The notes under the pieces: model-generated
Told to the model about the DNA's origin: nothing
Databases searched by the model: none
Seen by the model: only the letters and a program-made list of their open reading frames with translations
DNA from: Novosphingobium barchaimii LL02
GTDB taxonomy: Bacteria > Pseudomonadota > Alphaproteobacteria > Sphingomonadales > Sphingomonadaceae
Length of the DNA stretch: 56,247 nucleotides
Direction of reading: 5' to 3'
Assembly: GCF_001046635.1 (NCBI RefSeq)
Contig: NZ_KQ130452.1
Span: 1,356,795-1,413,041, forward strand
Made by a program: the position numbers and the translations under genes
Shown here: in pieces, positions 43,562-56,247 of the stretch
How positions within the stretch are numbered: position 1 is the stretch's first letter
How the letters are laid out: every line of letters starts with the position of its first letter

Positions 43562-43656
43562 TTTCGCTAGATTAGAACCGATTCGGACCAGCTTGTCTGC
43601 CGATCCGGTACAAACGATTTAAGCCACATTAAAGATTGCCGCGTTACAATTTCGTC

Positions 43657-46446
43657 ATGAGCCAAACAGGCGCCGAACACTTCTTTCAGGTCCTCCTCTG
43701 CGCGAGAGACCAGCATCGGCCGGAGATGGTCGTGCTGGCAATCCTTGCCTGCGCCCTGGCTGGCGGTAAGGCCATGTCCCTCCTCTACCAGGCGCGCGGC
43801 CGCAAGCGCAGCGGTGGCTACCTGCTGGCCGGCCTCATACTCGGCTTCGGATGTTGGGCAGCACACTTCATCTCGTCTTTGGGCTTCGATACCCGCCACC
43901 ATCATTCCTATTCGCCGTGGCTGACTGCCGTTTCGCTGGTCGTCGGCATTACCGGAGCACAGGCCGCGCTCTATCTGGCAGTACAGTCGCGATCGAAGGT
44001 CGGCCTCGTCCCCGCCGCACTGCTGCTGAGCGCGGGGCTGGCGGCAATGCACTACACCGGCATGGCGGCGCTGGAAGTTCCCGCAATGCTAAGCTGGGAT
44101 TGGCATCTTGTGGCGGCTTCGGTCGTCTTGCCGGCAATCCTGTTCTATCCCGGACTTTTCATCGCCCTGCGCGCGCGAGGTTTAACTCATATTCTCGCGG
44201 CAGCCGGATTGGTAACGATGGCTGCGCAGGCCCTTCACTATTGCGGCACAGCCGCGCTGACCTTCATTCCGTCGCACCTCTCCGACCAGGGGCTCTCGAT
44301 ACCGCAGGAGGAACTGGCCGCATGGCTGTGCGTCGGCTCGCTGGCGGTGGTGGCGATCAGTACGTTTGCGCACCAATTGCGCCAGCGCGCCCACGCCGCA
44401 CGGTTGCTGGCCGAGCGCCAGTTTGCACAGTTGGTCAGGGGCACGTCCGATTACGCGATCTGCATGCTCGACCTCAGCGCGCATGTTGCGCAGTGGAACG
44501 CGGGCGGCCGCTCGCTAATCGGCTATGACGATGCCGAGGCGCTGGGCCTGCCCTTCGCGCGCTTCTTTACAGCCGAGGACCGCGCTGCGGGCCGCCCCGC
44601 ACTCGCCATCGCCGAGGCAGATGCTCTGGGCATCTCCAAGGGGCAGTGGCTTTGCACCCGCAGCGACGGGTCGCATTTCTGGGCGCACGGCACGATCGAG
44701 AAACTGTGCGACGAGGACGGCGCACCCATCGGTTATTCGCTCATCACCCGCGACATCACCGAGATCAAGACGGCGCAGGACGCGCTGGCCGAAAAGTCAC
44801 ACCAGCTCGACACCGCACTGGAACACATGAGCCAGGGCCTGTGCATGTTCGACTCACAAGAGCGCCTGATCTTCGCCAACCGCGCCTTTTACCGGGTCTG
44901 GGCAATCCCGGAAGAGCGCTGCCAAGCCGGAACCACCCTTACCGAACTGGTCTATGCCGGCTACTTGGCGGCGGAGTACCACCCGGTTCAGACGCTCGAT
45001 AAGATCCGCAAGTCCGTCCTGCGTGCCAGCACTTCGGGCGACCGTCCTTCATGGCATCTCGATGTCAGCAACGACCTGGTACTGGCGATCAGCGAGCGTG
45101 CGCTGCCCGACGGCGGCTGGATCGCCACATTTGAAGACATCACCCAGCAGCGCCGTTCCGAAGCCCGGATCGCGCACATGGCCATGCATGACCCATTGAC
45201 CGGCCTGCCGAACCGCGCCCAGTTCAATCGGGAAGTGGACGCAATGATCGCCGATGCCACGCTGGCGCACGAGAAAGTCGCAGTGCTCGCCATCGACCTC
45301 GACCGCTTCAAGGAGATCAACGACACGTTCGGACATGCCTCAGGCGACCACCTGCTACAGGTTCTGGCGGGGCGCTTCAGCGCCACCCGCCGCGAAGGCG
45401 AGGCGTTGGCCCGCCTCGGCGGCGACGAATTCGCGGCCGCCATCCGCTTCACCCGCCGCAGCCAGCTCAACGACTTCATCGCCCGAATCCGGGCCTGCAT
45501 CACTGTGCCGGTTGACGATCAAGGACAGCCACTCACCGTTGGCGCCAGCTTGGGTGTCGCCACTTACCCGCTTCACGGCGACACCCGCGAGACCCTGCTC
45601 AACAATGCCGACCTCGCGATGTACCGCGCCAAGGCCAGACTGGGTGAAAGCATCTGCTTCTTCGAAACGGGCATGGACGAAAGAGCGCGCGAACGCAGGC
45701 AGCTCGCCAACGACTTGCGCCAAGCCGGCGCGAATGGCCAGTTGAGCGTACTCTACCAGCCACAGCACTCGCTGCGCACCGGCGCGGTATCGGGCTACGA
45801 GGCGCTGCTACGTTGGATGCACCCCCGCCGGGGGCTGGTATCGCCCGACGAATTCATACCCATCGCCGAGGAGACTGGCGAGATCATCGCGCTGGGCGAA
45901 TGGGTGCTGCGTGAGGCCTGCCATGAAGCCCGGTCATGGCCGGGCGAGGAGAAGGTCGCGGTCAATCTTTCGCCCGTACAGTTCCTTCAGCCCAATCTTG
46001 TAGAAATGGTCCGCTCCGTTCTGGTGGAGACGGGCCTTCCTGCCCGCCGGCTCGAACTGGAGATCACCGAAACCGCCATCATCCACGATAAACTGCGCGC
46101 GCTCCATTGCCTGCGCCTCATCAAGGCCATGGGCATCAGCGTGGCCATTGACGACTTCGGCACCGGCTATTCCTCCCTCGACACATTGCAGTCGTTCCCG
46201 TTCGACAAGATCAAGATCGACAAGTCGTTCCTGCTGAAATCAGAAGGCAGCGCCCAAGCCCGCGCCATTATTCGCGCCGTTCTGGCGCTGGGCCGCAGCC
46301 TCGACATACCTGTGCTGGCCGAGGGAATCGAGACTGAGGGGCAGCTCAGGGTGCTGAAGGCGGAAGGCTGCGACGAGGGCCAGGGTTATTATTTCGGCCA
46401 TCCCTCTGCCGCGCCCAGTTTGAAAGTGCGGGAAGCAGCGCCGTGA
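43657..46446 (+). CDS. MHYT-PAS-GGDEF-EAL cyclic-di-GMP protein
   Basis: A 929-residue membrane signalling protein that may make and break c-di-GMP. Residues about 1-240 hold seven hydrophobic helices with the MHYT motifs AAHF (degenerate), MHYT and LHYC, thought to bind copper and sense O2, CO or NO. Two PAS-like regions follow (QLVRGTSDYAICMLDLSAHVAQWN and LEHMSQGLCMFDSQERLIFANRAF). GGDEF is intact (ARLGGDEFAA), with RxxE in place of the RxxD inhibition site. The EAL domain has YEALLRW, LEITET and IDDFGTGYSS. The ATG at 43657 is chosen over an in-frame TTG 21 bases upstream. Confidence 0.92.
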   Translation: MSQTGAEHFFQVLLCARDQHRPEMVVLAILACALAGGKAMSLLYQARGRKRSGGYLLAGLILGFGCWAAHFISSLGFDTRHHHSYSPWLTAVSLVVGITGAQAALYLAVQSRSKVGLVPAALLLSAGLAAMHYTGMAALEVPAMLSWDWHLVAASVVLPAILFYPGLFIALRARGLTHILAAAGLVTMAAQALHYCGTAALTFIPSHLSDQGLSIPQEELAAWLCVGSLAVVAISTFAHQLRQRAHAARLLAERQFAQLVRGTSDYAICMLDLSAHVAQWNAGGRSLIGYDDAEALGLPFARFFTAEDRAAGRPALAIAEADALGISKGQWLCTRSDGSHFWAHGTIEKLCDEDGAPIGYSLITRDITEIKTAQDALAEKSHQLDTALEHMSQGLCMFDSQERLIFANRAFYRVWAIPEERCQAGTTLTELVYAGYLAAEYHPVQTLDKIRKSVLRASTSGDRPSWHLDVSNDLVLAISERALPDGGWIATFEDITQQRRSEARIAHMAMHDPLTGLPNRAQFNREVDAMIADATLAHEKVAVLAIDLDRFKEINDTFGHASGDHLLQVLAGRFSATRREGEALARLGGDEFAAAIRFTRRSQLNDFIARIRACITVPVDDQGQPLTVGASLGVATYPLHGDTRETLLNNADLAMYRAKARLGESICFFETGMDERARERRQLANDLRQAGANGQLSVLYQPQHSLRTGAVSGYEALLRWMHPRRGLVSPDEFIPIAEETGEIIALGEWVLREACHEARSWPGEEKVAVNLSPVQFLQPNLVEMVRSVLVETGLPARRLELEITETAIIHDKLRALHCLRLIKAMGISVAIDDFGTGYSSLDTLQSFPFDKIKIDKSFLLKSEGSAQARAIIRAVLALGRSLDIPVLAEGIETEGQLRVLKAEGCDEGQGYYFGHPSAAPSLKVREAAP

Positions 46447-46560
46447 AGACAAGCCGGTCCAGCTCTCATGATATTGAAAGATATCTTCATCTTTCCTCAC
46501 CCCGGCGTTTACCAATGCAGGAAAAATTAACTTCCTTGGTCTTAGCTTGGGCCAAACCGG

Positions 46561-48678
46561 ATGGGGATCTGCGTGTATTTGGGGCTTGATAACGAGAAGG
46601 CGGACACGGTGAAGTCCGGCGCGATTGGCGATGACACGACCATGCCTTCGCTAGACACCGCGCTGCAGGCTGCCTCACTCGCCGAAAAGCGCCTTCGCGA
46701 GGCGATCGAGGCGATCCCGCAGGGCATCGTCTTCCTCGACGAGGAAGACCGCTACATCCTGTGGAACGAGCGCTACGCCGAAATCTACGAGAAGTCCGCC
46801 GACTTGCTGAAACCCGGCGTAAGGCTGGCCGATGCCTTGCGCATCGGCATCGAGCGTGGCGACTATCCCGAGGCGACGGGACAGGAAGAGCAATGGCTGT
46901 CCAGCCGCATCGCCCAGTTGCACCAGCCGGGGCGGCGACACGAACAGCGTCTGTCGAACGGGCGCTGCATCATGATCGAGGAGCGCCGCATAGAAGGCGG
47001 CGGCACGATCGGTATCCGTGTCGACATCACCGACCTCAAGCAGAAGGAAGAAACGTTCCGTCTGCTGTTCGAACTCAACCCCCTTCCGATGCTGGTCTAC
47101 GATCAGGAGACAGGCCGCGTCCGCGCCGCCAACGAGGCCGCCTACGCCCTGCTCGGCTATGGCCCCGGCGAAATGGATTCCCTGCCCGCGCGTGCTCTGT
47201 TTCCCGCAAGCCTGTGGCAAAATGCCTCCGAACTGCTCGCCACCGACCATTCCGATGCCAACGACTGCTGGCAGATGCTGCGCAGGGATGGAACTTGCGT
47301 CGACACGGCTATCTCCACCCGCCTCTCCGGGCTGGAGGACCATGCCGGCACCATCGTCTCGATCTTCGACGTAACAGAGCGCCGCCGCATCGAGCAGCGC
47401 ATGGCCCACATGGCGCGGCACGACGAACTGACAGGCCTTGCCAACCGCGCCCACTGCCGCGAACACCTGCGCGACCTGCTGGACCGTGCCGGCTCCACCG
47501 AAACCATCACCTTCGCGCTGGTCGATCTCGATCATTTCAAGCCGGTGAACGACACTTACGGCCACCATTTCGGCGACGTCGTGCTGACCGAGACCGCAAC
47601 GCGCATGCGCGAACTGATCCCGCCAGACGCCCTGCTGTGCCGGGTGGGCGGCGACGAGTTTGCGGTGATCTTCCGCCGCTCCAGCCTGACCCAGGCCGAA
47701 TTGGTCGCCAAGTCGATCATCACCACGCTCTCCGAACCGTTCTTCGTGCAGGGCCACATGATCCACATCGGCGCCACTATCGGCTTCGCATCCTCTCCAT
47801 ACGACACCCGCGAAGCCGAAACGCTGATGCGGTATGCAGACCTTGCGCTTTACGCCGCCAAGGGTGAGCGGCGCGGAACCTGCCGGGGCTTCGAAGCCGG
47901 CATGGATGCAGCCGCGCAGGAGAAGAACCGGCTGGAGAAGGACTTGCGCGCGGCAGTCCGCCAGGGATCTCTCGAAGTCCATTACCAGCCGATCGTCGAC
48001 CTGCAGACCGGCGCGGTCGAATGCTATGAGGCGCTGCTGCGCTGGAACCACCCGGAGCGCGGCGCGGTGCCGCCCGATGTCTTCGTTCCCCTGGCCGAGG
48101 AGATGGGCCTGATAGACCCGATCGGCCGCTTCGTGCTGGGCAGTGCATGCGCAGAGGCCATGCGCTGGCCGGCGCATGTACGCGTCGCGGTGAACGTCTC
48201 GCCGCTTCAGTTCCGCAACGGCAACCTGCTGAGCACAGTCATCAACGCCCTGTCCACCTCTGGCCTCGCCGCAGAGCGGCTGGAGTTGGAGATCACTGAA
48301 GCGGTGCTGATGGAAAAGGGGCCACGCCCGGCCGCCATCATCCGCAACCTGCGCGCCTTCGGAATCGGCATCTCGCTGGACGATTTCGGCACCGGCTATT
48401 CCTCGCTGAGCTATTTGCTCAACTACCCTTTCACCAAGATCAAGATCGACAAGTCGTTCATCCTCAACCTGCACCAGGAGGCGAGTTCGCGCGCCGTGAT
48501 CCGCGCCGTCATCGGGCTGGGCCGCAGCCTGGGCCTGACCGTCACCGCCGAGGGCATAGAGCACGAGATCGACCGCGATTATCTGCGCGAGGAAGGCTGC
48601 ACGCAGGGGCAGGGATATCTGTTCGGCCACGCAGAGCCGCCACTGGCGATCGCCGCGGCGCAGTGCCGCGCCGCCTGA
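46561..48678 (+). CDS. PAS-GGDEF-EAL cyclic-di-GMP protein
   Basis: A 705-residue soluble signalling protein. Two PAS-type segments (EAIEAIPQGIVFLDEEDRYILWNERYAEIYE and LLFELNPLPMLVYDQETGRVRAANEAAYALLGYG) precede GGDEF (CRVGGDEFAVIF, no RxxD inhibition site) and EAL (YEALLRWNHPERG, LEITEAVLME, LDDFGTGYSSL, KIKIDKSF). Both catalytic signatures look intact, so direction of activity cannot be told. It follows the MHYT protein on the same strand after 114 bases and shares its GGDEF-EAL layout, so a tandem duplication with different sensor parts is likely. Confidence 0.92.
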   Translation: MGICVYLGLDNEKADTVKSGAIGDDTTMPSLDTALQAASLAEKRLREAIEAIPQGIVFLDEEDRYILWNERYAEIYEKSADLLKPGVRLADALRIGIERGDYPEATGQEEQWLSSRIAQLHQPGRRHEQRLSNGRCIMIEERRIEGGGTIGIRVDITDLKQKEETFRLLFELNPLPMLVYDQETGRVRAANEAAYALLGYGPGEMDSLPARALFPASLWQNASELLATDHSDANDCWQMLRRDGTCVDTAISTRLSGLEDHAGTIVSIFDVTERRRIEQRMAHMARHDELTGLANRAHCREHLRDLLDRAGSTETITFALVDLDHFKPVNDTYGHHFGDVVLTETATRMRELIPPDALLCRVGGDEFAVIFRRSSLTQAELVAKSIITTLSEPFFVQGHMIHIGATIGFASSPYDTREAETLMRYADLALYAAKGERRGTCRGFEAGMDAAAQEKNRLEKDLRAAVRQGSLEVHYQPIVDLQTGAVECYEALLRWNHPERGAVPPDVFVPLAEEMGLIDPIGRFVLGSACAEAMRWPAHVRVAVNVSPLQFRNGNLLSTVINALSTSGLAAERLELEITEAVLMEKGPRPAAIIRNLRAFGIGISLDDFGTGYSSLSYLLNYPFTKIKIDKSFILNLHQEASSRAVIRAVIGLGRSLGLTVTAEGIEHEIDRDYLREEGCTQGQGYLFGHAEPPLAIAAAQCRAA

Positions 48679-49912: not shown

Positions 49913-50635
49913 ATGCCTATCGACGCCGCCAATCCCGTCGCGCCCGTGTTCCCGCGTCATGTCGGCATGGACCAGGTGCCAGCCCACGTGCCACCCGAAC
50001 TGATCCGGCAGTCCGGCCTGACTTTCGGCCCGGACTTCCTTGCAAACCCACACGATTTCATGGCCGCGCTCCACGAAAAGCAGCCGCCGATCTATTACGA
50101 TGTCAGCCCGATGGGTAATATGTGGCACCTCATCAAGCACGAGGATGCGCTGTTCGGCCTGCGCCACCCGGACGTCTTTTCCAACGAGGGCGCCACCCCC
50201 TTCCCGCGTGATCCGGACGACTATTTCTACTTCATCCCGATCGAGATCGATCCGCCCCACCACCGCAAGTACCGCAACATCGTCGACCCGGTGTTCAGCC
50301 CTCAGGGCGTGCTCAAACTGGAAGGTCAGATCCGCCAGCGTGCCAACGACCTGATCGACGCGATCGATGCCAAAGTCGCCGCCAGGGAGACTTGCGAATA
50401 TACCGAAGACTATGGCCGCCCGCTGCCCGTCTCGGTCTTCCTCGACATCATGGGCTTGCCGCAAGACATGCGGGACGAATTCGTCGACTGGGCGGTGAAG
50501 CTGCTGCATTCGAACGACCGGGCGATCATGGCCGAACAGATGGGCAAGATCACCGCCTATCTGAAGAGCGCGATCGAGGACAAGAAGGCTAATCCCGACG
50601 ACGGCGTCGTTAGCTGTAGGCGCTTGCAACCGTAG
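49913..50635 (+). pseudogene. Cytochrome P450, cut off by transposon insertion
   Basis: The first 234 codons (49913-50614) encode the N-terminal half of a soluble bacterial class I P450. It has the start MPIDAANPVAPVFPRHVGMD, the B-C region HPDVFSNEGATPFPRDPDD and the helix C motif IEIDPPHHRKYRNIVDPVFSP. At base 50615 the frame runs into the transposon terminus, adds six foreign residues and stops. The I-helix threonine motif, ExxR and the heme-binding Cys are all missing, so no heme enzyme can form from this half. It resembles CYP101/CYP111-like enzymes of Novosphingobium, but the substrate is unknown. Confidence 0.92.
50610..50614. repeat. Presumed left copy of the target-site duplication
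   Basis: TTAGC directly before the transposon terminus. Five-base duplications are the rule for TniA/Mu-type elements; the partner copy would lie just past base 56247, outside the window. Confidence 0.4.
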
Positions 50636-50758
50636 CAGCTTCTGCTCGCAAACAGCGCCTTTTCCTGCCCAGATTACCTGACAACGAGCCGACTATGCTG
50701 CTCACGCTATCCGACAATGTGCTCGCCATCATCCGCGTCTGCTCGCAAACGGCAAAGG
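50615..50758 (+). repeat. Left terminal inverted repeat (about 144 bp)
   Basis: Aligns without gaps to the right end; I count 118 of 144 matching bases. Conserved blocks include TGTAGGCG, CTGCTCGCAAACAGCGC (50642-50658) and ATGCTGCTCACGCTAT (50695-50710), continuing to 50734. Units starting CTGCTC or a close variant begin at offsets 28, 51, 84, 105 and 125. Confidence 0.88.
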
Positions 50759-50793
50759 GCCGCTCATGGTATCTGCCAACTACAAAGTCGAGA

Positions 50794-51246
50794 TTAGCAG
50801 TCATTTGCTGATGCGCGATGCTCACGCAGCTTTGTGGAACCCAAGATCAGAAAGTACACGATGGGGCAAACCACCATCAGCATCACTGCTGGATCGGTAG
50901 CCCATCTCGTTGGGCCATCGCTGTCCGGCTCACTTGCTACCGCGAGCATGAGCGCGATTGATCCTCGCACAGCGGCGTAGGTGGCAGGAACAAGCAGGAT
51001 GTGGAGAAGCCACCCGTAGCGGAACCGCATGGCGCCAAACCAGCAGAGTACAGCTATGGCGGGTGGAGCGAGTGTGGCGGCTACGAAGCCGCAGAACCAA
51101 ATGGCAAACCCTGCCGGAGTCAGCGTATCGCGATAGTAGCTGGCGATCCCATCCGGTCGCAATCCGAGAGCGACGAAAGAGCCTGCGACGACAACGGCAC
51201 CCAAAGCCGTCAGTCCGACGCCACGCAATGTCCCGTGTCTCGGCAT
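50794..51246 (-). CDS. Passenger membrane protein of unknown function
   Basis: A 150-residue protein with four predicted membrane helices: VGLTALGAVVVAGSFVALGL, a long hydrophobic segment around TPAGFAIWFCGFVAATLAPPAIAVLCWFG, LLHILLVPATYAAVRGSIALML, and VMLMVVCPIVYFLILG. I recognise no family. It starts at ATG 51246, 28 bases after the stop of the carrier-like gene, so the two minus-strand passengers probably form one unit; a TTG at 51321 would make them overlap. Its role in transposition or host benefit is unknown. Confidence 0.65.
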   Translation of the reverse strand: MPRHGTLRGVGLTALGAVVVAGSFVALGLRPDGIASYYRDTLTPAGFAIWFCGFVAATLAPPAIAVLCWFGAMRFRYGWLLHILLVPATYAAVRGSIALMLAVASEPDSDGPTRWATDPAVMLMVVCPIVYFLILGSTKLREHRASANDC

Positions 51247-51274
51247 CAATCTATGCAATCCAGTAAGCCATTGA

Positions 51275-51967
51275 TCAGGCTGCTCGCACTTTGGCTCGGA
51301 AGAAGGTCGTTTCCGACCCAATCAGATCGGGGTCGATCCCGCTCTCCTCGGCGGCCAGTTGCTGGATGATCCGCCAAATCTCGGGGGCGGTGAGGCGCGC
51401 GCCGTCGCGGGCAAGCCTGCCACGGTTCTGCTCCGTGACCAGTCGGGCGAGATCGCCGATAGTGTCGCACCTCCGAGGTAATCGCCGGCGGTCGAGGTGC
51501 CGTAACCATAGCCCCGCGTAGGCGCTCGCTCCAGCAGCGAAGATGCGAAGGGGAGGTGCCAGCGTCGTGAAGGCGAGGATCGCGACCGCGACAGCGAAGC
51601 AGAGACCACTGACAATCCCAAGCCATCCGGCTCGCGTCGCCGGCATCTTGAGGTCGGTATCGGCTTCCAGGTCGCTGAACGCTTGGCGCAGCTTCCCACC
51701 GATCAGCGGCGCCAACGGCGCATCCGGCCCGACGTGCCGGCCAAGCCCGAGCGCGCGTCGAAGCCTGTAGAACGTCATCTGCGTGGCGCATGTCGTGCCG
51801 CCCCCGCTGTAGGCTGCGACATGCGCGACGACATGGTCACGCACCTCGCCGAACGTTGTCCAAGGCAGGTTCGAGCGCAGGCGCAGATCGAAGGTGCGCT
51901 CGATTGCGAGGAAGAAGTCGGTGTCGTCGCCATCACCGACCCAGCCAACCGTATCGAGCACCTGCAT
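51275..51967 (-). CDS. Passenger protein with two acyl-carrier-like modules around a membrane hairpin
   Basis: A 230-residue protein. Residues 1-60 (GDGDDTDFFLAIERTFDLRL, then TFGEVRDHVVAHV) look like an acyl-carrier or DUF1493-type helical bundle. Residues about 112-153 form a hydrophobic hairpin (WLGIVSGLCFAVAVAILAF and FAAGASAYAGLWL). Residues about 165-230 (DTIGDLARLVTEQN, then EIWRIIQQLAAEESGIDPDLI) resemble a second such module. The serine that takes phosphopantetheine in true carriers is replaced by Thr in the first module and not evident in the second. Function unknown. Confidence 0.6.
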   Translation of the reverse strand: MQVLDTVGWVGDGDDTDFFLAIERTFDLRLRSNLPWTTFGEVRDHVVAHVAAYSGGGTTCATQMTFYRLRRALGLGRHVGPDAPLAPLIGGKLRQAFSDLEADTDLKMPATRAGWLGIVSGLCFAVAVAILAFTTLAPPLRIFAAGASAYAGLWLRHLDRRRLPRRCDTIGDLARLVTEQNRGRLARDGARLTAPEIWRIIQQLAAEESGIDPDLIGSETTFFRAKVRAA

Positions 51968-52132
51968 GAACCCGGCTCCTCAGCGGTTCTGCAAAACGAC
52001 CGTTTCTGACGAGCCGATCGCCTTGCTGGGCCGGCAACGTAAATCTGCGGGCCGCACTTTGTCAAAACTGTTCTGGAAACCCGCGTCGCAAAACGGTATG
52101 CCCCGCACGAGTTTGGAGAAGATCAGACGCTC
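51968..52132. promoter_or_regulatory. Likely res site and divergent promoters of the transposon
   Basis: The 165 bases between the divergent passenger and resolvase genes are AT-richer and contain several CAAAAC/GTTTTG-like short repeats, including a dyad AAACG-AC-CGTTT near 51989. Serine-resolvase recombination sites usually occupy just this place. I cannot define subsites I-III by eye. Confidence 0.3.
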
Positions 52133-52729
52133 ATGCGGGTCGGCTATGCCAGGGTCAGCACCAGCGACCAGAACCCCGAGCTCCAGCTCGATGCGCTGCG
52201 GCGGGCCGGCTGCGAGCGGGTGTTCACCGAAAAGGCGTCGGGCGCGCGCGATGACCGGCCCGAACTGGCGCGCATTCTGGAAGACGTGCTGCGCGCAGGC
52301 GACACGCTGGTTGTTTGGAAGCTCGACCGCCTCGCCCGCTCGCTCAAGAAGTTGATCGCCACGGCCGAGGATCTGGAGCGCGAGAAGATCGGGCTGGTGT
52401 CGCTGACCGAGAGCATCGACACGACAACGCCGGGTGGCATGCTCACCTTTCACGTGTTCGGCGCCATCGCGCAGTTCGAGCGTGCCCTGATCCGCGAGCG
52501 AACTACCGCGGGGCTAGTGGAGGCGCGCCGGCAGGGTCGCAAGGGTGGCCGCCCATCGGCAATGCGCCCGAGCGACGTCGCCGCGGCACGGGCGATGATG
52601 AAGGAGGGCACGTTGCCGGTGCGCGACATCGCCAAGCGCATGGGCGTGTCGGTCGCGACCCTCTATCGCTATGCAGGCAAGCGCGGCAGCGGTGCATCGA
52701 TCAAGGAGGCTGCAACAGCCCATGGCTGA
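52133..52729 (+). CDS. Serine resolvase of the transposon
   Basis: A 198-residue small serine recombinase that resolves transposition cointegrates. The catalytic Ser lies in MRVGYARVSTSDQNPELQ; conserved segments are VVWKLDRLARSLKKL, DTTTPGGMLTFHVFGAIAQFERALIRERTTAGL and the C-terminal helix-turn-helix (VRDIAKRMGVSVATLYRYAG). Its stop overlaps the transposase start by eight bases, and the AAGGAGG for the transposase lies inside this gene. Confidence 0.95.
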   Translation: MRVGYARVSTSDQNPELQLDALRRAGCERVFTEKASGARDDRPELARILEDVLRAGDTLVVWKLDRLARSLKKLIATAEDLEREKIGLVSLTESIDTTTPGGMLTFHVFGAIAQFERALIRERTTAGLVEARRQGRKGGRPSAMRPSDVAAARAMMKEGTLPVRDIAKRMGVSVATLYRYAGKRGSGASIKEAATAHG

Positions 52730-54374
52730 CCGGGCGAAGCGACCGCCTGGAGAGGCGCTGATCGATCTTCGCCGACGGTTGTCGCTGTTGCCCCCACGCG
52801 ACCCCGGTCGCACCGAGATCATCGCCCGTGCGGCCGAGGCCTATGGCATCTCCATCTGGACCCTTTACCGGGCGTTGCGCGAGCTGAACCGCCCCAAGTC
52901 GGTGCGCCGGTCCGACCATGGTGCGACGCGGGTTGCCCCGCAGGCCGAGATGGAGCGCTACGCCGAGATCGTCGCCGCACTGAAGATCAGGACCACCAAC
53001 AAGAAGGGCCGGCACGTTTCGACCGCCCGCGCCATCGAGTTCCTGGAAACCGATGGCGTCGAGACGCCGGAGGGCCTGGTCAAGGTAGCACCCGGCCTGC
53101 TGAAGCGGGCGACCATCGACCGGCTGCTCCGCTCATCAGGGCTGGACTATGCCCGCGTGACCCGCCCCCACGCAGCCGTTCGTTTTCAGGCGCGGCGATC
53201 CAACGAGCTGTGGCACTTCGACATGAGCCCGTCCGACCTCAAGCAGGTCGAGGCGCCGCTCTGGATCGAGCAGGGTCGCGGCAAACCCACGCTGATGCTG
53301 TTCTCGGCCGTCGATGACTGCTCGGGCGTGGTCTACCAGGAATATCGCAGCGTCTATGGCGAGGATGCCGAGTCCGCGCTGCGCTTTCTATTCAACGCCT
53401 TCGCCGCCAAGCCTGAGCCCGAACTGCCGTTCCAGGGCCTGCCGGTCACGATCTACATGGACAACGGCCCGGTCAGCCGGTCGCGCGTGTTCCAGTCGGT
53501 GATGGGCAGCCTCGGCGTGCGCGTCCTCACCCATCTGCCGCCGAAGGCCGACGACCGGCACACCGCGGCCCGCGCCAAGGGCAAGGTCGAGCGGCCGTTC
53601 CGCACGGTGAAGGAGGTGCACGAGACGTTGTACCACTTCCACAAACCCAAGGACGAGGCGGAAGCCAATCTGTGGATGCGGCGTGCGCTGGTCACCTACA
53701 ACAACGGCGACCATCGTTCCGAGCCACACGCGCGGATCGAGCACTGGCTGCGGCACCTGCCCGGCGATGGCGTGCGGGCCATGTGTTCATGGGAGCGGTT
53801 CTGCGCCTTCGCTCGTGAGCCCGAGCGGCGCACCGTTGCGGGCGACGCGACCGTCTCGGTTGAGGGCGCTTCCTACGAGGTCGAGCCCGAGCTCGCCGGC
53901 GAGACGGTGACGCTGCTCTGGGGGCTGTTCGACCAGCAGCTCTTCGTGGAGCATGACGGCAAGCGGCATGGCCCTTACGAGCCGTCGCGCGGCGCCGTGC
54001 CGCTCTACCGCTATCGCAAGTATCAGAAGAGCCGCGCCGAGGAGCGGCTCGACAAGGTGGTCCGGCTCGCTGACCAGCTGGGGCTGCCCCGCGCGACCGT
54101 GACGGGCGGCGACCGGCCGCTGCCGTCGCTGCCGCCCTCCACCGCAGGGCTCGCGGTGCGGCAAACACCTTTTCCGGAGCCGGCGGTCGAGACGGCATAC
54201 CCGACCGGGCTCGCGGCGCGCCACGCCATCGTCGACCAGCTCCGGCGACCGCTCGGCTCGCTGCCTGAGGCAGACCGCGCCTTCATCGACGCGCTGCTGG
54301 GCGAAACGCTCGACAAGACCATCATCGCTGACCGCATCCGAGAGCGGTTCCAGTCAAGACGGGGGACAAGCTGA
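52722..54374 (+). CDS. DDE transposase, TniA/Mu-type integrase core
   Basis: A 550-residue transposase. Residues 1-150 hold helix-turn-helix regions for end binding (AEAYGISIWTLYRALREL and VAPGLLKRATIDRLLRSSGL). The RNase H-like core has Asp near 167 (LWHFDMSPSD), Asp near 247 (TIYMDNGP) and Glu near 290 (AKGKVERPFRTVKE). A C-terminal Mu-type beta domain follows (VSVEGASYEVEPELAGETVTLLW). It starts at ATG 52722 inside the resolvase gene's end; its TGA overlaps the ATG of the ATPase gene (TGATG). The family is sometimes labelled IS481-like in annotations, but the ATPase partner places it with TniA. Confidence 0.93.
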   Translation: MADRAKRPPGEALIDLRRRLSLLPPRDPGRTEIIARAAEAYGISIWTLYRALRELNRPKSVRRSDHGATRVAPQAEMERYAEIVAALKIRTTNKKGRHVSTARAIEFLETDGVETPEGLVKVAPGLLKRATIDRLLRSSGLDYARVTRPHAAVRFQARRSNELWHFDMSPSDLKQVEAPLWIEQGRGKPTLMLFSAVDDCSGVVYQEYRSVYGEDAESALRFLFNAFAAKPEPELPFQGLPVTIYMDNGPVSRSRVFQSVMGSLGVRVLTHLPPKADDRHTAARAKGKVERPFRTVKEVHETLYHFHKPKDEAEANLWMRRALVTYNNGDHRSEPHARIEHWLRHLPGDGVRAMCSWERFCAFAREPERRTVAGDATVSVEGASYEVEPELAGETVTLLWGLFDQQLFVEHDGKRHGPYEPSRGAVPLYRYRKYQKSRAEERLDKVVRLADQLGLPRATVTGGDRPLPSLPPSTAGLAVRQTPFPEPAVETAYPTGLAARHAIVDQLRRPLGSLPEADRAFIDALLGETLDKTIIADRIRERFQSRRGTS

Positions 54375-55351
54375 TGCTCGCCGACGTTCAATCCAGCTAC
54401 GGGCTCGCCCGCCCGTTCCAAGGCGTCGGCAACTTCGAGACAGAGCATCAGCGCAACCTCGTGCGCGAGGTCTGTGCGGCCGTGCAGACCGGCAGGTTGA
54501 TCGTCGTCTCCGGCCTGGTCGGATCGGGCAAGACGCACCTGCTGCGCCGCATCGAGGACGAGCTGGCCCGGGCGGGCAAGGTCGCCGTCGCCAAGTCGCT
54601 TGCGGTCGACAAGCGCCGCACCTCGTTGCCCTCGCTGATCGAGGCGCTGTTCTACGATCTCTCGCCCGGTGACCGTGCCCAGGTGAAGATTCCCAAGCAG
54701 GCCGAGCGCCGCGAGCGCGACCTGCGCGACATCATGCGCAAGGGCAAGCGCCCGGTCGTACTGGTGGTCGACGAGGCGCATGACCTGCACCACAAGACGC
54801 TGACCGGCCTCAAGCGGTTGATGGAGGTGGTGGCTGATGCCGGCGTGCTGCTGTCGGTCCTTCTGGTCGGCCATCCTCGGCTACGCAACGACCTGCGCCG
54901 CCCGCAAATGGAAGAGATCGGCTACCGCACGACCACCTTCGACTATGAGGGCATCGGCGCCGAACGCCGCGACTATGTTGCCTGGCTGCTCGGCGCCTGT
55001 GCGGCCGAGGGGGTCAAGGTTGCCGACTTGATGAACGAGGACGCGATCGACCTCATCGCCGAGCGCCTGCGCACCCCGCTCCAGATCGAGATGCACCTGA
55101 CACTCGCCTTCGAGCAGGGCTTCCGCTTCGCTGCCAAGCCCGTCACGGCCGAGATCGTCGAGCAGGTGCTGTCGCGGGCGATTGACGACCTCGAACCCAC
55201 GCTGACGCGCAACGGTTACGATGCGGGCGCGCTCGCCAGCCAGCTCAACACCCGGCCGTCCGACATACGCGCGTTCCTCGCCGGAACGCTGGACGCCGAA
55301 CACACCCGCGACCTGACCGAGCGGCTCCGCGAAGCCGGTGTGCCGATATGA
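54374..55351 (+). CDS. AAA+ ATPase of the transposon, TniB/ExeA-like
   Basis: A 325-residue ATPase that by analogy with MuB and TniB captures target DNA and delivers it to the transposase. Walker A is SGLVGSGKTHLLRRIE (residues about 47-62), Walker B is VVLVVDEAHDLHH, and sensor 1 lies in LSVLLVGHPRLRNDLRRPQ. The middle shows the AAA_22/ExeA pattern (FETEHQRNLVREVCAAVQTGRLIVVSG). A C-terminal segment about 40 residues longer than TniB may take over part of the role of the absent TniQ. It overlaps the transposase gene by one base. Confidence 0.92.
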   Translation: MLADVQSSYGLARPFQGVGNFETEHQRNLVREVCAAVQTGRLIVVSGLVGSGKTHLLRRIEDELARAGKVAVAKSLAVDKRRTSLPSLIEALFYDLSPGDRAQVKIPKQAERRERDLRDIMRKGKRPVVLVVDEAHDLHHKTLTGLKRLMEVVADAGVLLSVLLVGHPRLRNDLRRPQMEEIGYRTTTFDYEGIGAERRDYVAWLLGACAAEGVKVADLMNEDAIDLIAERLRTPLQIEMHLTLAFEQGFRFAAKPVTAEIVEQVLSRAIDDLEPTLTRNGYDAGALASQLNTRPSDIRAFLAGTLDAEHTRDLTERLREAGVPI

Positions 55352-55451
55352 TACTGGCTGTCCTCGCCTTGGTATCTCCCGCACGCGGACGCAACGCATG
55401 TCGTCTGTGCCACCGATTGTGGACGTTGCGCTTCTCTCATAGCCTGCCGGC

Positions 55452-56021
55452 ATGAACAGGCATCTTACCGCAGCTTCTTTATCGATCGTCAGCTTGCTCA
55501 GCGCGTGCTCGGCCTCGGCCGAGAGGAGGTTGGAGGGACGAGTCTTCGACATCCCGAGAGCCAACGACATATCCGACAATGATAAGCCGTTCTTTCTACC
55601 AGCGCTCGATCCCAGCGACGGGTTCTCGTTCTACCTAAATCCGAGCGCAAGCTTGCCGGAGCGAAACTTGGTGGGCGTGGCAAGCAAGAAGCGGATGTGT
55701 GCCCGCGCAGCGGGAACAGAGGCGCTTGTCAACTCGACTGTCTGCGCAAGTCGCCCGCTTTCATGGCGCGGCCGAACACTGCGCAAGGTAAGTGATGGTG
55801 TTTTCTGGACATACCAGTTGCCAGCCGAAGCAGGTCAGAAGCGTCCTCCATCGCTGGCGAGTTGCTCCGCCATGGGCGGAGGCTCGCGGCCGGGGCTCTG
55901 CACGGCCAATCTGCCGTATGACAATCTCGTGCTGACGATTCACTTCCGAGACAATCAGGTCGGCTCGCTCCAGGCATTATACGATCAATCCGTTGCTAGC
56001 CTGAGGAAGTGGGAGCGCTGA
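55452..56021 (+). CDS. Passenger lipoprotein of unknown function
   Basis: A 189-residue protein with a lipoprotein signal (MNRHLTAASLSIVSLLSAC, lipobox LSAC). The mature part is basic to neutral with several cysteines (RMCARAAGTEALVNSTVC, SCSAMGGGSRPGLC) that could form disulfides in the periplasm, and ends in a strand-like LVLTIHFRDNQVGSLQALYDQ. I recognise no family. It has its own short upstream space (100 bases) after the ATPase gene and lies before the right terminus. Confidence 0.65.
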   Translation: MNRHLTAASLSIVSLLSACSASAERRLEGRVFDIPRANDISDNDKPFFLPALDPSDGFSFYLNPSASLPERNLVGVASKKRMCARAAGTEALVNSTVCASRPLSWRGRTLRKVSDGVFWTYQLPAEAGQKRPPSLASCSAMGGGSRPGLCTANLPYDNLVLTIHFRDNQVGSLQALYDQSVASLRKWER

Positions 56022-56103
56022 TGCTTACGGCAAACCCGGCGGGAACGATCGCTGCCAGACCGCTCACCGGCACTCCTCGCTATTGGCAGAAAGCGAGAAC
56101 AGG

Positions 56104-56247
56104 CCTTCTCCGTTTGCGAGCAGGCGCGGATGATGGCGAGCACATTGTCGCATAGCGTGAGCAGCATGGCCCACCTGCTGTCAGCAAATCTGAGCAGAAA
56201 TCCGCGCTGTTTGCGAGCAGAGGCCAGTATCTTTGCAATCGCCTACA
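56104..56247 (-). repeat. Right terminal inverted repeat (about 144 bp)
   Basis: Reverse complement begins TGTAGGCGATTGCAA and matches the left end without gaps. CTGCTCGCAAAC occurs at 56209-56220 and 56112-56123 (as the complement), at the same offsets as on the left. The final base of the repeat is the final base of the window. Confidence 0.88.

Follow-up and report, generated by a model that had tools for sequence, protein, structure and literature searches.

A TniQ-free DDE and AAA+ transposon from Novosphingobium barchaimii with a TA-centred target site and its own resolvase: a likely branch near Tn552 and Tn5053

In transposition systems that pair a DDE transposase with an AAA+ ATPase, the ATPase (MuB, TnsC and alike) activates the transposase and presents the target DNA. 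Elements of the Tn5053/Tn402 group duplicate 5 bp of target DNA. The staphylococcal transposon Tn552 is described as replicative, with ends of ~120 bp and flanking repeats of 6 bp, or of 10 bp at some copies (PMC3276174); Tn7, Tn5090, Tn5053, and Tn552 itself have all been described with arrayed ends (PMC8649781). Here, we analyzed a stretch of 56,247 nucleotides from Novosphingobium barchaimii LL02 (contig NZ_KQ130452.1, positions 1,356,795–1,413,041), designated as the window, in which positions 50615–56247 bound a full-length 5633-bp transposon. The element is likely a replicative transposon with a DDE transposase, an AAA+ ATPase, a TA-centred target, its own resolvase, and no TniQ, on a branch near Tn552 and Tn5053.

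The two 165-nucleotide arms of the element are imperfectly inverted (80% complementary), and both have TGTAGGCG tips. Eight identical copies (5633/5633 bases) were found elsewhere, four of them on the Sphingobium plasmids pMI1 and pMI3 (strain MI1205), pTK6 (TKS), and pSRL3 (B90A) (loci L038–L041) and four on Sphingobium contigs, two from S. ummariense and one each from S. arseniciresistens and S. quisquiliarum (L003, L004, L005, and L026). Because these copies match base for base over 5633 bp, the unit is real and its ends are exactly those given here, in agreement with the first-pass annotation of this DNA, which had proposed a full-length element between inverted termini. The right tip supplies the last base of the window, and two S. 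ummariense contigs (L003 and L005) break off at the same point, so that a repeat has probably interrupted the assembly there. A loose TGCTC-type motif occurs at the five offsets given in Table 1 in 33, 34, 28, 31, and 30 of 38 ends, respectively (19 elements, Nostoc included), and the two ends of the Nostoc element (L073) agree at 45/45 bases. The ends had been called unusually long, a description that does not stand beside the ~120-bp ends of Tn552 (PMC3276174) and the arrays described for Tn7, Tn5090, Tn5053, and Tn552 (PMC8649781).

TA occupies positions 3–4 of the flanking hexamer in 77/77 distinct junctions, as compared with 60/2926 (2.05%) at other offsets of the same flanks. The first junction set gave 71/71, and the number rose to 77 after L073, L092, and L093 were added. 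The junctions span proteobacteria to Nostoc. Some depend on one another: a matching duplication contributes both of its sides, and the left hexamer of L005 and the right hexamer of L001, both GCTAGG, look like one insertion. About 60 sites remain. Beyond TA the site is loose, with CTAG in 6/71 and YTAR in 21/71 hexamers. Perfect 6-bp duplications flank 13 of the 28 copies with both flanks readable and two of the three added later (15/31), the latter two being L073 and L092 (ends with 33/45 matching bases). The remaining 16/31 copies have two different flanking hexamers, both TA-centred; among them is L093 (ends with 35/45 matching bases). The hexamers of L028 (CTTAGG and CCTAAG) are mutually reverse-complementary, which an intramolecular event could leave.

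The ends were mapped by BLAST of the window ends against related loci, by an inverted-tip search requiring TGTA/TACA tips with no condition on the flank, and by a relaxed search for TGT/ACA tips that gave a bonus for any 4–8 bp duplication and presumed no TA; the last one yielded L073, L092, and L093. End pairs with 16–18/30 matching bases were not accepted in the TGTA/TACA search. In the relaxed search, candidates for L007, L029, L031, L032, L036, L072, and L091 matched at 25/45 bases or fewer and were discarded, some of them showing a 4–8 bp repeat. Both inverted-tip searches gave no acceptable ends for L007, L031, L032, L036, L072, and L091. The right end of L029 was placed by BLAST and counted, L040 was omitted as the same site as L039, and the junction set leaves out L053–L060, L066, L076, and L077.

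Insertion near res sites, which had been raised as a possibility to be examined on the flanks of related copies, was rejected: a tblastn search with four resolvases (E up to 1e-4) detected serine recombinase genes in only 2/76 unique flanks (up to 1.5 kb each, 107 kb in total), the search being gene-based and blind to orphan res sites. L061 is inserted 78 bp past the 3′ end of a recombinase gene adjoining a Tn3-family transposase gene, and L001 lies 916 bp from a recombinase gene. Neither flank appears to be good evidence for res hunting, in the case of L061 because res is expected on the 5′ side of the recombinase gene.

The mobility genes of the element follow one another in the order serine resolvase, DDE transposase, AAA+ ATPase (R-T-A). 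As had been read from the open reading frames, the genes overlap, by 8 bp between resolvase and transposase and by 1 bp between transposase and ATPase; the transposase start was taken from the annotation of an identical copy. Asp167, Asp247, and Glu290 of the transposase are invariant in 13 aligned sequences and were judged by eye to be the catalytic triad, and its rve match is sub-threshold (25.4 bits, cut-off 32.6). L029, which contains stop codons, was dropped from both protein alignments and L020 from that of the ATPase. Sequence matches to solved structures were mostly retroviral integrases at weak E-values for the transposase and mostly ABC-protein P-loops for the ATPase. The last ~50 residues of the ATPase are conserved from Sphingobium to Nostoc, and no stretch matched by Pfam falls there; this tail may do part of the work of TniQ. 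The ATPase has 325 residues, as compared with 302 in TniB, 271 in p271, and 329 in a Tn552-like ATPase frame counted from its first start codon. Since the last frame exists, ATPase length alone means little.

The absence of a TniQ-like gene, also noted in the first-pass annotation, was confirmed at several levels. No tniQ is among the six main open reading frames, nor is one annotated in the other copies examined, and a six-frame search for TniQ (PF06527; E up to 0.1) found none in six of seven whole plasmids carrying the element or a relative. Identical copies lie on three of the six (pTK6, pSRL3, and pMI3) and relatives on the other three (L042, L061, and L071). On the seventh, pAtCFBP6623b, the single match lies inside a separate tniA-tniB-tniQ-tniR mercury element near a relative. 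As a positive control, the TniB and TniQ of this mercury element were also detected by the protein scan. A Pfam scan that took in 64 open frames from the window element and from two relatives of 3.7 kb did not have TniQ among the 25 of 59 families listed. The minimal relatives L024, L025, and L027 fall within 3722–3749 bp (the three lengths being 3722, 3739, and 3749 bp), with 339–344 bp before the resolvase and 185–192 bp after the ATPase; they have room for three genes only and therefore none for tniQ.

The putative res site directly upstream of the resolvase gene is shared by the window and 16 relatives, in which the subsites are conserved and much of the intervening DNA varies. Single-strand folding of the subsites found no structure. 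When 15 loci were compared, L004 matched throughout; L006, L008, L009, and L042 share DNA with the window out to 51272–51297; homology stops within 51987–51997, at the first subsite, in L007, L011, L028, L035, and L061, and within 52044–52059, at the second subsite, in L010, L012, L023, L024, and L029. The first-subsite group would fit an exchange of passenger halves at res, and the same picture would arise if the conserved backbone simply ended there. Plasmid pMI1 is chimeric at the element (L038 4014–9646), its left flank being that of pTK6 over 4013 bp and its right flank that of pMI3 over 1000 bp. The unmatched flanks in 16/31 copies are what replicative transposition and recombination between copies would be expected to leave. 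For Tn7-like elements, loss of tnsA and gain of a resolvase have been argued to mark a replicative pathway (PMC8649781).

In the mechanism that we propose, the transposase would bind the arrays of ~20-bp repeats in both ends, the ATPase would activate it and present target DNA, and the strands would be joined with a 6-bp stagger centred on the TA step. The resulting cointegrate would be resolved by the serine resolvase of the element at the res-like site beside its gene. TniQ would have no part in this: local target choice would amount to the TA-centred hexamer, and the flanks showed no target feature beyond it. In its descent, the element would belong to a branch, here called RTA, with a transposase–ATPase core and a site-specific recombinase, which would lie near Tn552 and Tn5053 among the PHROG 310 transposases and include ISAzs36. 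The ends, the genes, the 6-bp TA-centred duplication, the spread of the family, the lack of TniQ, and the conserved res-like site are features of the DNA itself. Several points weigh against the proposal. The role of the ATPase, the replicative pathway, and resolution are inferred; the res subsites were read from conservation; and homologous recombination by itself could have produced the unmatched flanks. Long branches make the deep placement of the transposase unsure. A hidden Markov model built from nine family ATPases did not report any of five comparators (TniB, p271, two Tn552-like ATPases, and IstB), hhalign probabilities were low (8.9 for p271 and 10.7 for TniA), and the helix-turn-helix region of the resolvase gave a chance-level match to TnsD (E 0.09; 12.2 bits, cut-off 32.4).

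Kinship with the described families had to be weighed against this proposal, beginning with the TniAB-type label of the first-pass annotation. Membership in TniAB was rejected: TniQ is absent, the ATPase is not TniB, and the transposase falls outside the sampled clade of TniA and Tn552-like proteins. Specifically, PF05621 (TniB) was not among the best 25 of 26 families for the window ATPase (E up to 0.1) and was not matched by two divergent relatives at 0.001, while a control TniB on an Agrobacterium plasmid that also carries a relative of the element matched at 4.6e-78. In the transposase tree, TniA and two Tn552-like transposases form one clade (98/97) and the window family another (100/100), with long branches between them, and the 6-bp duplication also departs from the label. 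A Tn5053-type element that has lost TniQ would share the same general parts, a resolvase, and arrayed ends. Its gene order, its ATPase, its duplication length, and its res targeting would all differ from what is seen here, and the tniA-B-Q-R control was detected by the same tools. Loss of TniQ is thus highly improbable and largely refuted, because there is no TniB and the gene order is another one. A divergent Tn552-family member with another target appears less far-fetched, although still unlikely. On pMW2, bin, p480 (split into two frames there), and p271 of Tn552 stand in the same order with overlaps, and the 6-bp repeats, ~120-bp ends, and replicative movement described for Tn552 (PMC3276174) speak for such a relationship. 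On the other hand, the two Tn552-like transposases group with TniA, apart from the window family; the comparators in this tree were Tn552-like proteins and not p480 itself, and its long branches make this placement provisional. The window transposase has no match to PF09299 (Mu-transpos_C) up to E 0.1, whereas p480 and TniA match it; its match to PF22483 (Mu-transpos_C_2) is sub-threshold (17.2 bits, cut-off 27). Furthermore, insertion in res sites was not found for the window family (a serine recombinase gene in 2/76 flanks), and neither of the two readable outer flanks of a Tn552-like element in related genomes is TA-centred (6-bp stagger assumed).

It is improbable, somewhat more so than kinship with Tn552, that an IS481-family element gained an ATPase and a resolvase and kept an IS481-like target. 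Relatives of the element, ISAzs36 among them, bear the NCBI label "IS481 family", and among NCBIfam models the transposase matches IS481 (NF033577) best. IS481 elements are also described as duplicating NCTAGN (PMC6794481; PMC2516522) and as having TGT tips (PMC11406308). The match, however, reaches 69.5 bits against a cut-off of 224, and membership in IS481 was rejected on this score. Four hits over the cut-off in eight related genomes scored 274–288 bits, and TniA (47.6 bits) and the two p480 pieces (50.2 and 45 bits) match the same model too. PHROG 310 gave 100 bits for the window transposase, 165 for TniA, and 277 for a Tn552-like transposase, as compared with 33 and 50 for two IS481 comparators, and PHROG 296 gave 67.8 bits for the window ATPase, 37.9 for TniB, and 139.8 for a Tn552-like ATPase; we take PHROG 310 and 296 to be of the MuA and MuB kinds. 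As to NCTAGN, TA forms the core of all 77 junctions, and CTAG is present in only 6/71 hexamers. The safest statement is that the transposase appears to be a DDE enzyme outside the sampled Tn5053/Tn552-like clade and outside IS481 proper. On the tests run, the element is not a member of Tn5053, nor, provisionally, of Tn552. A bolder reading, which we put forward tentatively and with less confidence than the replicative TniQ-free transposon itself, would make it part of a distinct, formally undescribed TniQ-free DDE and AAA+ branch that extends from proteobacteria to cyanobacteria, with a strict TA-centred hexamer, an exchangeable recombinase, and an ATPase tail that may partly replace TniQ. In the portions available of the open-access literature on the element and its families, no description of the R-T-A layout as a family was met.

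The R-T-A order and the end array are conserved among relatives. The relative on Nostoc pNsp_e (L073 2567–6789) has a tyrosine recombinase gene in place of that of the serine resolvase, the type found in most copies seen, and is flanked by a perfect TCTATT duplication. Relatives are common on plasmids: transposase matches (at least 80% of the transposase, E up to 1e-5) were found in 591/72,556 plasmid records, which is not a count of whole elements. The element is sparse in genome surveys, with 6/396 genomes in the order of S. arseniciresistens (1e-100; four of the six already known), 1/197 in the order of Erwinia (1e-60; the seed itself), and 2/385 in the class of Ciceribacter (1e-80; one being the seed), each survey using a different E limit. 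The branch bears on the way in which AAA+ ATPases direct DDE transposases in the Tn7/Mu/IS21 group when no TniQ adaptor is present. With its very clean target signal (77/77), natural 3.7-kb examples that have room for three genes only, and identical copies in several strains, it could serve as a simple system for such tests. Among its cargo, moved from genus to genus, is a phosphite/phosphonate operon.

Features of the element and its left flank are listed in Table 1. The open reading frame preceding the P450 frame has plasmid homologues annotated as 2Fe-2S protein. A search for the intact P450 site on plasmids, made to recover the right flank, gave no long match, and eight related genomes contained partial homologues only. 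None of the three passenger frames has a Pfam match; two lie to the left of the resolvase gene, and the third lies beyond the ATPase gene on the right. Two long tandem GGDEF/EAL-type signalling genes, recognised by eye from their translations, adjoin the interrupted P450 region at 43636–48678.

Table 1 Features of the transposon and its left flank in the window.
Feature	Position	Strand	Remarks
Target: cytochrome P450 gene cut by the insertion, N-terminal part	49913..50614	+	Matches P450 models over their N-terminal half only
Left target hexamer GTTAGC (NNTANN)	50609..50614	.	Duplication partner outside the window
Left end, 165 bp	50615..50779	+	Tip TGTAGGCGCTTGCAA; TGCTC-type repeat array at offsets 29, 52, 85, 106, 126
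Hypothetical passenger gene	50794..51321	-	Hypothetical protein annotated there in two identical copies
Hypothetical passenger gene	51275..51967	-	DNA rightwards from ~51272 common to relatives L006, L008, L009, L042
Putative res, three conserved dyad-like subsites (~51987–52010, 52057–52082, 52085–52121)	51987..52121	.	Limits by eye; 17-sequence alignment
Serine resolvase, 198 residues	52133..52729	+	PF00239 3.1e-45, HTH_7 4.9e-10
DDE transposase, 550 residues	52722..54374	+	PHROG 310 "transposase" 3.2e-28; NCBIfam IS481 below cut-off
AAA+ ATPase, 325 residues	54374..55351	+	AAA_22 3.6e-17; PHROG 296 "DNA transposition protein" 1.6e-18; no PF05621
Hypothetical passenger gene, 189 residues	55452..56021	+	Lipobox-like N-terminus, read by eye
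Right end, 165 bp	56083..56247	-	Same array as left end; tip is the last base of the window

Some further observations concern the relatives. In nine annotated plasmid regions from Rhizobiales and relatives (L043 and L062–L069), the left part contains phnCDE, phosphonate (phosphite) dehydrogenase, and LysR genes, which make up a mobile phosphite-use cassette. L012, L017, and L022 are of equal length (8892 bp). Five of 19 annotated plasmid insertions (L041, L043, L065, L066, and L069) are near replication/partition genes, a raw count in which L066 has an end assigned by analogy only. A transposase of 54% identity is present on many Salmonella plasmids, of which a good share measure ~94 kb; an "ExeA family" protein often lies next to it, and ISAzs36 is named on pSLT-like plasmids (PMC12393075). 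The Tn552-like element mentioned above has TGTAAACG tips (L094 2243; L096 8600), with a second, internal tip copy, and occurs on four contigs, three belonging to the L026 genome and one to the L004 genome.

Among the known systems, Mu (MuA, MuB) and IS21 (IstA, IstB) also combine a transposase with an AAA+ partner, but to our knowledge they have no resolvase, and their ends and targets are different. The IS481 family (IS481, ISRe46/TnRErm46) resembles the window element in its 6-bp duplication with a TA core, its TGT tips, and the NCBI label, and differs in its CTAG rule and in a transposase family whose cut-off the window protein falls far under; we know of no ATPase or resolvase accompanying the IS481 transposase gene. 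For IS21, no target selector is reported (PMC10293859). Tn5053/Tn402 (tniA, tniB, tniQ, tniR) likewise unites DDE, AAA+, and resolvase proteins with arrayed ends, whereas it has TniQ and TniB, the order A-B-Q-R, and the habit of a res-site hunter (PMC11406308). A named relative does exist, as the first-pass annotation had allowed for, in ISAzs36 of Azospirillum sp. B510 (pAB510f), which shares the R-T-A order, a 62% identical transposase, tips that agree with each other at 30/30 bases, and NNTANN flanks; it differs in its length of 5675 bp, an ISAzs10 inside, other passengers, and unmatched flanks. ISAzs36 is known from its "IS481-like" label, and it is only named in PMC12306178 and PMC12393075; a description of it as a transposon was not found. 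Tn552 (bin, p480, p271) shares the three TniQ-free components, the same overlapping order, 6-bp duplications, and long arrayed ends, although it falls in another transposase clade (provisionally), inserts in res sites, and carries bla passengers. The three-component TniQ-free layout, proposed at first as a novelty, is already known from Tn552 (PMC3276174), and the remaining interest lies in the TA rule and the separate lineage. Most likely, the element of N. barchaimii would work like Tn552, with arrayed ends, a transposase and an ATPase, a cointegrate, and a resolvase.

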